A stretch of 39,757 nucleotides of DNA from a virus: IMG/VR virus record IMGVR_UViG_3300017991_000207, positions 1-39,757 of that record. One strand, given 5' to 3'. The notes beneath the pieces are model-generated. The model did not search any database and had not been told where the DNA came from. It saw only the letters and a list, made by a program, of their open reading frames with translations. Shown one piece after another: positions 4,179-6,212 of this stretch. The position numbers were made by a program, and so were the translations under genes. The first letter of the stretch is position 1. Every line of letters starts with the position of its first letter.

Positions 4179-4741
4179 AAGTCTACAAGCTCACCAACAA
4201 AAACAATCAAACTTATGACGACTGTCAGTGGGGACCGGGCGTTACCCACGAGACCAGCGGCAAAGGAGATCTGTGCGGACCCGGCTGGCTACATGCCTAT
4301 TCCGACCCGCTGGTCGCCGTGCTGCACAACCCGATACACGGAGATTACGATCTCGCCACGGCCCATCTGTGGGAGTGTGAGGCGGAAGGGAAGATCAAAG
4401 ATGATCGCGGCCTGAAGCTGGGCAGCACAAAACTCACGACGTTGCGCCGGATCGATGTGCCCGTCTTTACCCCGGAACAAAAAACTGCTTACGGGATTTT
4501 GTGCGCCTGGATGGTGGAGAGAGATCCTAAGTGGCGGGCTTGGGCGCGAGCCTGGTTGAGCGGGGAGGATCGGTCTGAGGCGGCGGCGGAGGCGGCGGCG
4601 TGGGCGGCGGCGGCGGCGTGGGCGGCGGAGGCGGCGGCGTGGGCGGCGTGGGCGGCGGCGAGGGCGGCGTGGGCGGCGAGAGAGGCGAGGAGAACGCTCA
4701 ATTTCCCCCATCTTGCCCGGGCAGCCAGGAGAGTGAAATGA
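4175..4741 (+). CDS. DUF7666-like protein with Ala/Trp repeat tail
   Basis: The start ATGA at 4175 overlaps the previous stop. Residues about 1-95 resemble the small phage domain I know as DUF7666: GPGWLHAYSDPL near 37, then an acidic AHLWECEAEGKI strand and a TKLTTLRRI strand. Residues about 125-175 are a low-complexity run of WAA and AAE units encoded by repeated GCGGCG/TGGGCGGCG. The Ala/Trp tail is probably helical. Its function is unknown and its length is probably unstable between relatives. The last bases overlap the nuclease start at 4738. Confidence 0.6.
   Translation: MKVYKLTNKNNQTYDDCQWGPGVTHETSGKGDLCGPGWLHAYSDPLVAVLHNPIHGDYDLATAHLWECEAEGKIKDDRGLKLGSTKLTTLRRIDVPVFTPEQKTAYGILCAWMVERDPKWRAWARAWLSGEDRSEAAAEAAAWAAAAAWAAEAAAWAAWAAARAAWAAREARRTLNFPHLARAARRVK
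4576..4683 (+). repeat. GCG/TGG-rich microsatellite-like tract
   Basis: About 108 bp made almost only of GCG, GGC, GAG and TGG triplets, read in the gene as alanine, glutamate and tryptophan. It is a likely replication-slippage site where copy number can change by whole codons without breaking the frame. Confidence 0.7.
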
Positions 4742-5076
4742 AAGCCTACCGAACCGACGAACCCAGCGACAAAGAGAAGGCGGCGAGTAAGAAGGGCAAG
4801 CGATCTGTCAAGAAGGGCAAGCGCGAGAGTGAAGTGCTTGACCTCGTGCGGGCGAAGCTCGAAGAAATAAAAGAGACATTTTGGGCCTACAGAATGTCAC
4901 AACAGGTCGGGGGAGATAAGCGCCCGGACATCAACGTCTGCATGACTGGCAATCTGCATGACCAGCTATTCCACATCGAGGCAAAGCACGACGAGAAACG
5001 GAGCTTACGAGTAGCCTTCAAGCAAGCAGTCAGACAATGCAAGACCGGCACCCGACCCGTTGCAGTCTGTAAGTGA
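4738..5076 (+). CDS. PD-(D/E)XK nuclease (VRR-NUC-like), ending at an in-frame TGA
   Basis: The start ATGA at 4738 overlaps the previous gene; a longer frame from 4600 runs in the repeat tract and is rejected. The 112-residue product has a Lys/Arg-rich N-terminus. It then follows the phage PD-(D/E)XK endonuclease plan: RPDINV near residue 62 supplies the catalytic Asp, IEAK near 80 the Glu/Lys pair, and RQCKTGTRPVAV near 100 the last core strand. The frame stops at TGA 5074-5076. The next 28 codons in the same frame read like the family's usual C-terminus (a W-F-D-D-F-L-D-L-L element). The gene is therefore either truncated by a nonsense mutation or read through. Likely role: recombination or DNA processing. 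Confidence 0.7.
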   Translation: MKAYRTDEPSDKEKAASKKGKRSVKKGKRESEVLDLVRAKLEEIKETFWAYRMSQQVGGDKRPDINVCMTGNLHDQLFHIEAKHDEKRSLRVAFKQAVRQCKTGTRPVAVCK

Positions 5077-5163
5077 TCCCACGAACCAAGGATCGCCGTT
5101 CTTTGGTTCGATGACTTCTTGGATCTGCTGACGGCTTACCTGAAAGAACAGACGGAGGAATGA
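5077..5163 (+). other. In-frame C-terminal extension of the nuclease beyond TGA
   Basis: Directly after TGA 5074-5076 the same frame stays open for 28 codons to TGA 5161-5163. It encodes SHEPRIAVLWFDDFLDLL and a short charged tail. In related nucleases as I know them, this strand-helix unit closes the fold. One base change (CGA to TGA) would explain the break. The real stop overlaps the next start by ATGA, as at most junctions here, which argues that the longer product was the ancestral one. Confidence 0.6.
5082..5110 (+). promoter_or_regulatory. Stem-loop just downstream of the in-frame TGA
   Basis: CGAACCAAGG (5082-5091) pairs with CTTTGGTTCG (5101-5110) over 10 bp, including one G-U, with a 9-base loop. 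It begins 5 bases after TGA 5074-5076. RNA structures in this place can promote readthrough or selenocysteine insertion. It could also be a chance hairpin, and there is no U-tract to make it a terminator. Confidence 0.45.
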
Positions 5164-5264
5164 TGCTAGACCGCATGGTAACAGATAGAGACTTGCTGAT
5201 CATCGTGATCTTGCTATGGGGGATTTCCCTGTTGGCGATCTTGGCGATCCTGCTGATGGACTGA
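5160..5264 (+). CDS. Tiny single-span membrane protein
   Basis: ATG 5160 (or ATG 5163 next to it) overlaps the nuclease extension stop and is preceded by ACGGAGGA. The 34-residue product has a charged N-terminus (DRMVTDRD) and one continuous hydrophobic helix to the C-terminus (from LLIIVILLWG). Too short for automatic ORF calling, but well placed between genes. Function unknown; an inner-membrane peptide such as a lysis or superinfection accessory is possible. Confidence 0.55.
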   Translation: MMLDRMVTDRDLLIIVILLWGISLLAILAILLMD

Positions 5265-5267
5265 GGC

Positions 5268-6212
5268 ATGAATGAGCTTTCACTTTTCACTGGCGCTGGT
5301 GGAGGAATTCTCGGATCGGTCTTGCTTGGATGGCGAACTGTGTGCGGAGTTGAAATCGATCCGTACTGCCGAGAAGTCTTGCTTCGACGGCAAGAAGAAG
5401 GCCACCTCCCGCCCTTCCCCGTCTGGGATGGCATCAAGACTTTTGACGGGACCGTATGGCGAGGACGGGTTGACGTGGTTACGGCAGGTTTTCCCTGTCA
5501 GCCCTGGTCAGTCGCAGGAAAACGAGAGGGAGAAGCAGACGACCGCAACCTTTGGCCCGACACCATCCGGGTCATTCGCGAGGTGGGACCGAGATTCTGC
5601 CTGCTGGAAAACGTACCAGGTCTCCTTGCTCACGCATACTTTGGAACCATTCTCGGAGACCTGGCCGAAGCGGGGTTCAATGCGGAATGGTGTGTGCTGG
5701 GAGCGGACGATGTTGGAGCACCGCACAGAAGAAAACGGTTGTGGATACTGGCCTACGCCCAGGGCTTGCGATGGGGACAAGGGCGGGAACCCCAGGCCGA
5801 AGCAGAGGGGGGATCTTCAGGCAGCGGTGCGTGGTGGTCACAAGACCCGGCAGACGTGGCCGACGCCTGCAACTCGGGACTGGAAAGATTTAGGCAACGA
5901 ACCATCAGCGCAAACGAGAAAGTCCCCCTGCCTTCCGGCACGGGTCAGGATGTGGGCAACGCCGAACGTGCCGAACGGCGACCGCAGCACGAAGAGTGCG
6001 ACGAAGAGGGGCAACACCTTCTACAAGGACGGGAAGAAAGTGCAGGAGGGGTTGAAGTCTCAAGTCAGACCTGGGGCATTGAATCCCGATTGGGTCGAGT
6101 GGTTACAGGGTGTCCCAATCGCGTGGACCGCCTTAGATCCCTTGGCAACATGCAGGTTCCAGGCGTGGTGCAAGCTGCATGGCATTTACTCACAAGAGGA
6201 CTGATGGACTGA
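5268..6212 (+). CDS. C5-cytosine DNA methyltransferase (Dcm-like)
   Basis: ATG 5268 begins a 314-residue enzyme. FTGAGGG at residues 7-13 is the SAM-binding motif I. GFPCQPWS holds the catalytic Cys77 of motif IV, ENV at 114-116 is motif VI, and APHRRKRLWI at 151-160 is motif VIII. RLRSLGNMQVP near 288-298 is the C-terminal motif X region. It would transfer a methyl group to C5 of cytosine in a short DNA site, probably for anti-restriction. The stretch between motifs VIII and X (about 165-275) has unusual composition (Gly, Glu, Ser, Arg). It is exactly where the overlapping +1 frame carries its repeated WPTP/WATP blocks. The start is 4 bp upstream of the overlapping ORF. Confidence 0.9.
   Translation: MNELSLFTGAGGGILGSVLLGWRTVCGVEIDPYCREVLLRRQEEGHLPPFPVWDGIKTFDGTVWRGRVDVVTAGFPCQPWSVAGKREGEADDRNLWPDTIRVIREVGPRFCLLENVPGLLAHAYFGTILGDLAEAGFNAEWCVLGADDVGAPHRRKRLWILAYAQGLRWGQGREPQAEAEGGSSGSGAWWSQDPADVADACNSGLERFRQRTISANEKVPLPSGTGQDVGNAERAERRPQHEECDEEGQHLLQGREESAGGVEVSSQTWGIESRLGRVVTGCPNRVDRLRSLGNMQVPGVVQAAWHLLTRGLMD
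5272..6204 (+). CDS. Overprinted protein in the +1 frame of the methyltransferase
   Basis: ATG 5272 lies 4 bp inside the methyltransferase (ATGAATGAG carries both starts) and the +1 frame stays open for 310 codons. The product is not methyltransferase-like. It has FHFSLALVEEFSD at the start, LTWLRQVFP near 68, FSETWPKRGSM near 127, WPTP/WATP blocks near 159, 196 and 228, and ALNPDWVEWLQGVPIAWT near 270. From memory these features match a widespread phage protein family that also occurs apart from methyltransferase genes. The family may have originated by overprinting. Function unknown. Both frames appear to be under protein-level constraint, but the possibility that this one is a passive shadow remains. 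Confidence 0.6.
   Translation: MSFHFSLALVEEFSDRSCLDGELCAELKSIRTAEKSCFDGKKKATSRPSPSGMASRLLTGPYGEDGLTWLRQVFPVSPGQSQENEREKQTTATFGPTPSGSFARWDRDSACWKTYQVSLLTHTLEPFSETWPKRGSMRNGVCWERTMLEHRTEENGCGYWPTPRACDGDKGGNPRPKQRGDLQAAVRGGHKTRQTWPTPATRDWKDLGNEPSAQTRKSPCLPARVRMWATPNVPNGDRSTKSATKRGNTFYKDGKKVQEGLKSQVRPGALNPDWVEWLQGVPIAWTALDPLATCRFQAWCKLHGIYSQED

Follow-up and report, generated by a model that had tools for sequence, protein, structure and literature searches.

The analysed window spans the 39,757 bases of a virus record, in which portal, head and tail genes are situated downstream of the locus described here. At position 5268, the sequence ATGAATGAG opens two reading frames with starts four bases apart. 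As had been claimed in a preliminary description of this DNA, the frames comprise 314 and 310 codons and overlap almost completely; frame 1 is hereafter referred to as alpha and frame 2, which lies in the +1 frame, as beta (Table 1). The motifs named in that description were also recovered, namely PCQ, ENV and LGNMQVP in alpha, and two copies of WPTP, as well as WATP, ALNPDWVEWLQGVP and FSETWP, in beta. LGNMQV of alpha and LATCRF of beta are indeed two readings of the same DNA, and the conserved C-terminal end of beta thus shares its DNA with motif X of alpha.

Table 1. Features of the alpha/beta locus (positions in the window).
Feature	Position	Strand	Remark
Alpha (frame 1), C5-methyltransferase with motifs I–VIII and X, without motif IX	5268..6212	+	314 aa
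Beta (frame 2, +1), open frame with WPTP/WATP blocks and motif IX-like sequence	5272..6204	+	310 aa
GAGG, Shine-Dalgarno-like	5263..5266	+	1 nt 5' of start 1, 5 nt 5' of start 2
ATGAATG double start	5268..5274	+	
Alpha catalytic domain, motifs I–VIII (residues 1–170)	5268..5777	+	PF00145, hhalign, AlphaFold2
Beta N-core (residues ~101–150, WDRDSACWKTYQ...FSETWPKRGSMRNG)	5572..5721	+	conserved in beta; opposite alpha motifs VI–VIII
Beta block 1, WPTP	5749..5760	+	
Beta block 2, WPTP, followed by ATRDWKD	5857..5868	+	conservation 2.0x shadow expectation
Beta block 3, WATP	5953..5964	+	
Alpha stretch facing the WPTP blocks (residues 182–293)	5811..6146	+	unconserved, mostly predicted disordered
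Beta motif IX-like sequence LNPDWVEWLQGVPIAW	6079..6126	+	conservation 3.0x shadow expectation
Alpha motif X LGNMQVP; frame 2 reads LATCRF there	6141..6161	+	

Two further frames were observed upstream of the locus. Positions 535–1806 encode a protein in which a DNA methyltransferase domain follows a ParB-like N-terminus (phrog_498, E 5e-116), which makes this frame a second putative modification gene, located 3.5 kb upstream of alpha/beta. The frame just upstream of the locus (4738–5163, KRPDINV...FHIEAKHDEK) appears nuclease-like by eye and has no Pfam match; it contains an in-frame TGA at 5074–5076, continues as SHEPRIAVLWFDDFLDLLTAYLKEQTEE, and is possibly a broken gene or a sequence error.

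A C5-methyltransferase needs motifs I–VIII, a target-recognition region (TRD), motif IX and motif X. Bioinformatics analysis assigned alpha to PF00145 (E 7.7e-36) over residues 2–170 only, and its catalytic domain matches canonical methyltransferases by hhalign (E 4e-35). Motifs I–VIII, with PCQ and ENV, as well as motif X (GNxxVP, here LGNMQVP), are all present in this chain. Motif IX is absent from it, and LNPDWVEWLQGVPIAW is found in frame 2 instead, so that the complete set of motifs is reached by alpha and beta together only. The AlphaFold2 model of alpha is well folded at residues 1–170 and 298–309, and most of residues 182–293 fall below pLDDT 50, as expected if that part of the protein were mainly carried along.

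Beta itself matched no Pfam family. It falls into phrog_1008 (E 3.8e-25), as did all 56 frame-2 proteins scanned; this family is labelled DNA methyltransferase with no mention of the overlap. For a wider view, profile HMMs were used to survey 228 loci, 80 of them from bacterial genomes of many phyla and the others from phages and IMG/VR. The C-terminal domain of beta was located in the +1 frame relative to alpha at 222 of the 223 loci with a match, the exception being Mycobacterium phage ShiLan, where it lies in frame 0; among these 223 loci, it was never found in the +2 frame or without a methyltransferase. Thus, the earlier suggestion that frame-2 homologues recur as a family of their own stands (phrog_1008), and the accompanying claim that they sometimes occur without a methyltransferase does not, since none of the 222 loci harbors a homologue standing apart from its host gene. 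The motif IX pattern was found in frame 0 at none of the overlap-type loci and occurs in the +1 frame, the broad regular expression employed being suited for frame assignment only and not for counts of absence, as some of the known cases escaped it and one of its matches was false. Motif X lies in alpha (frame 0) at 198 loci and in beta (+1) at 24, and at the latter loci alpha usually ends shortly past motif VIII. On the alpha tree (rooted at its midpoint only), loci with motif X in alpha and loci with motif X in beta are interspersed, so that at least five frame changes are required.

To obtain a null expectation for stop codons, synonymous codons were shuffled inside the methyltransferase. 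In 69 non-redundant relatives, a comparison set partly recruited with beta itself, the +1 frame contains 63 stops versus 339 expected, while the +2 frame of the same relatives, used as a control, contains 945 versus 924 expected. In the 33 non-redundant loci recruited by the alpha N-terminus only, 38 stops were counted in the +1 frame versus 176 expected (the lowest of 300 shuffles gave 152), and in 18 loci with a GC content below 46%, nine versus 90 expected. The +1 frame stays open in phages of 29–44% GC; at locus L121 (29% GC), it is open over 224 codons, and the +2 frame has 14 stops. Five single-frame phage methyltransferases served as an additional control (72 +1 stops versus 83 expected), which is conservative, as three of them (L233, L235, L239) carry a shorter +1 frame themselves. 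For the window alone, a stop-free +1 frame of 310 codons arose in 0.145% of 20,000 shuffles (mean of 4.6 stops). Thus, because stops are depleted in the +1 frame and not in the +2 frame, frame 2 is, judged by these counts, a real gene, and both frames are held open by selection; it is not the shadow with frequent stops that had been named as the alternative in the preliminary description.

The expectation that frame 2 is conserved beyond the shadow of frame 1 was likewise borne out. Pairwise identity of frame 2, compared with that after synonymous shuffling of both partners, amounted to 0.308 versus 0.179 in the C-terminal half and to 0.271 versus 0.219 in the N-terminal half, although the stop counts are the cleaner evidence, since the +2 control was here also somewhat above the null, if raised less than frame 2. 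Protein-level selection in the second frame is thus evident above the shadow level. The excess conservation along beta is found at its very start, at the WPTP blocks and, mainly, at residues ~106–165 (WKTYQ...FSETWP occupying ~106–135) and at LNPDWVEWL.G.P, with the 3.0-fold peak at NPDWVEWLQGVPIAW, where frame 2 reaches 0.64 versus 0.47 for frame 1. Residues ~16–105 are near the shadow level, that is, open rather than conserved, which counts against beta being part of a split methyltransferase. The parts that look overprinted are the first ~100 residues of beta and the stretch of alpha that faces the WPTP blocks.

The start region was compared at 39 loci that share the 4-nt layout, a layout seen in isolates such as Acinetobacter phage ABMM1 and Pseudomonas phage phPA-G. 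The second start, at +4, is mostly ATG (36 loci), with GTG at the other three, the first start is variable (ATG, GTG or TTG), and the Shine-Dalgarno-like core, where found, is mostly located 3–6 nt 5' of start 1, which places it 7–10 nt 5' of start 2. Where a start is present at +4, the first 75 codons of the +1 frame contain 14 stops versus 68 expected; where it is absent, the counts are 21 versus 32. To judge from its sequence, the start region of the 4-nt-layout loci is arranged for double use, and at the window locus the single GAGG element may drive both starts.

As regards the identity of beta, gp70 of Mycobacterium phage ShiLan is, unlike the window locus, a single chain with all of its parts in one frame, and the LPTP blocks and motif IX (WMMGWPAGW) of gp70 are homologous to beta. 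The beta profile aligned with the in-frame C-terminus of ShiLan gp70 with an hhalign probability of 97.6 (E 2.8e-12), and the alignment spans the WPTP repeats and motif IX. ShiLan gp70 is nested among the overlap-type methyltransferases on the alpha tree (midpoint root only) and may therefore be a re-fused descendant of them. In addition, window alpha covers positions 211–386 of phrog_116 and the beta of phage Zaka covers positions 381–491 (E 8.8e-7), so that the two frames tile one methyltransferase profile. On the other hand, direct hhalign comparison of WPTP-type beta with single-frame methyltransferases gave no match, which counts against the split-enzyme reading. When ten betas were searched against Pfam and NCBIfam, the sole match was a weak one to dcm at the motif IX position of the L143 protein (E 0.15). 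A profile search of PDB with beta gave no match; the PDB matches of the L143 beta were weak, and 26 of the 27 were C5-methyltransferases. As the WPTP-type motif IX is recognized neither by Pfam nor by direct profile comparison, its identity rests on its position, its pattern, the ShiLan homologue and a natural cassette swap described below.

For the conserved C-terminal half of frame 2, the best explanation is that it represents the target-recognition region and motif IX of the methyltransferase itself. The proposal that a protein family of independent standing was born here by overprinting is not supported; rather than a newborn protein, the second frame most likely encodes the DNA-recognition subunit that the enzyme would otherwise lack. 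Modelled alone, beta gave a poor structure (pTM 0.21), with two hairpin-like strand pairs of low confidence in the N-core, and a comparison of its fold was dropped for this reason. The number of xPTP-like blocks in the beta proteins of 100 loci ranges from 0 to 7, a spread suggesting that recognition modules are gained and lost in lengths divisible by three, which would leave both frames intact.

Similar divisions of labor exist among known C5-methyltransferases. The beta polypeptide of M.EcoHK31I (YGGCCR) is reportedly encoded in an alternative frame inside alpha and is said to consist of 176 aa, being shorter than the window beta. It would start inside alpha, whereas in the window the beta start lies 4 nt past that of alpha and the overlap extends over the full gene. 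In M.EcoHK31I, motifs I–VIII and X are carried by the large subunit, and motif IX is found in the small polypeptide only (PMC3404938). Compared by motif layout, the window locus displays the same split, alpha being the chain that holds motifs I–VIII and X, and beta the one that holds motif IX. The TRD of M.EcoHK31I has been assigned, by prediction, to the large subunit, whereas the TRD-like blocks of the window are conserved in the +1 frame. M.AquI likewise consists of two polypeptides, the smaller of which carries both motif IX and motif X (PMC3404938); the window locus differs from it in having motif X in alpha, and the M.AquI-like split is found in the 24 relatives with motif X in the +1 frame, among them L056, L061 and Zaka gp91/gp90.

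Annotated counterparts of beta were also found. In Paenibacillus phage Diva (g49/g50) and in E. coli phage K1ind3 (ORF30/ORF29), an internal +1 gene has been annotated within the methyltransferase; it matches phrog_1008 and, unlike beta of the window, starts well inside alpha. Diva g49 is annotated as a hypothetical 'internal gene', an internal gene is also listed for K1ind3 ORF29 and Zaka gp90, 'Mte8-like protein' is another label in use, and the records of phages phPA-G and DosHalletts list beta only. None of the annotation records examined offers a functional explanation of the internal gene, no explanation of the 'Mte8-like' label was found, and the searchable literature yielded no description of overlapping or split phage methyltransferases.

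Considering the motif layout, the stop counts and the homology to ShiLan gp70, it is likely (with a probability of about 0.8) that the locus encodes one split, M.EcoHK31I-like C5-methyltransferase composed of alpha and beta, with beta nested in alpha; from the sequences we infer translation of beta, a heteromer, recognition by the WPTP blocks, and methylation. Alpha would supply the cofactor-binding and catalytic motifs I–VIII along with motif X, and beta, initiated 4 nt downstream of the alpha start and plausibly via the same ribosome-binding site, would contribute motif IX as well as the target-recognition-like WPTP blocks. Together, the chains would form one active enzyme protecting or marking phage DNA, whose specificity would shift as the WPTP blocks change.

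It might be argued instead that frame 2 encodes an overprinted phage protein with a separate function, such as anti-restriction or regulation, unrelated to methyltransferase catalysis. The N-core of beta shows conservation of its own, and a shorter +1 frame is open in Firmicute-phage methyltransferases that already have motif IX in their own frame, both of which would suit such a protein; it is nevertheless unlikely, as frame 2 was never found without a methyltransferase, holds the sole motif IX-like sequence of the locus and often motif X, and has its C-terminal half in-frame with the methyltransferase in ShiLan. Programmed +1 ribosomal frameshifting past motif VIII, which would produce one long fused methyltransferase and dispense with a separate beta start, appears quite unlikely as well. 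A single +1 shift would give the complete canonical order at loci with motif X in the +1 frame (e.g., L056 and L061), but at loci of the window type the ribosome would have to shift once more to reach motif X, and the +1 frame is held open as far upstream as the +4 start (14 versus 68 stops) and conserved upstream of any shift point.

The remaining explanation, according to which frame 2 is an untranslated shadow of methyltransferase coding constraints and base composition, could draw on the fact that the +1 frame of a GC-rich methyltransferase has few stops anyway (4.6 expected in the window). It is contradicted by the fivefold depletion of stops in the family and by the open +1 frames of AT-rich members; the +2 and single-frame controls are less depleted, and frame-2 identity exceeds the shuffle expectation. 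We regard such a shadow as highly improbable.

If alpha and beta are indeed two parts of one methyltransferase, a common phage enzyme is only half-annotated, as gene callers usually keep one of the frames, and alpha by itself would be predicted inactive. The overlapped beta gene appears to recur in phages and in bacteria of many phyla, with annotations that usually omit or mislabel it. The locus is a long same-strand overlap under clear selection and would be unusual in that its two products belong to a single enzyme. As this enzyme occurs in single-frame, in overlapping and in apparently re-fused form, the origin and upkeep of overlapping genes would be directly testable in this system. Changes of methylation specificity in phages are concerned too, because one cassette swap alters both subunits together.

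Such a swap is seen in two virus contigs, L138 (2190–2645) and L143, whose flanks are 90–100% identical and which carry unrelated cassettes of ~450 nt in the middle of the methyltransferase. Both frames are open over both cassette junctions; the +1 segment of one contig is of the LPTP type and ends in LNLNFVELIMGFPENW, while the other has a canonical-looking end, LTPEELEKIMGFPQGW. In a further contig, L292 (IMGVR_UViG_3300023171_000006), the +1 protein matches PF00145 with 30.1 bits (cut-off 22) over profile positions 179–294. L292 carries motif IX (LTPLECERLQGFPDYW) in the +1 frame and motif X in frame 0, unlike its nearest relatives, whose motif IX is in frame 0; L292 is a single contig, and its layout reflects either a genuine transfer between frames or two indels from assembly.

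Many C5-methyltransferases of Firmicute phages, in which motif IX is mostly in frame 0, contain the aforementioned shorter +1 frame of 140–190 codons, open over motifs III–VIII (44 loci, including L232, L233, L235, L239, L377 and L384). In 21 non-redundant loci, this frame has 0 stops versus 113 expected, and the +2 frame is not depleted. It corresponds to phrog_16143, which matches phrog_1008 weakly over the N-core, and it ends in SLSDILEExVDEKYFLS, a segment that single-frame methyltransferases (e.g., L241) carry in frame 0 after motif VIII. Gp51 of Streptococcus phage P0095 is such a shorter +1 frame. As motif IX of the Firmicute-phage enzymes is in frame 0, beta is not its carrier there, and the role of the N-core perhaps lies outside the split-enzyme model. 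There is, in our estimation, an even chance that phage C5-methyltransferases constitute a widespread frame-mosaic class, in which the connector, TRD, motif IX and motif X would move between overlapping frames through swapped cassettes and shifts of frame, with both frames remaining under selection, and in which a single piece of DNA would encode both subunits and one recombination would swap them; the shared +1 N-core opposite motifs VI–VIII would then be an undescribed subunit, even where the remaining methyltransferase is single-frame. In a prophage of E. coli PCP07014 (L231:1501-2262), alpha and beta are broken a few bases apart, by TGA and TAG, respectively, and the gene is annotated as a pseudogene with an internal stop.
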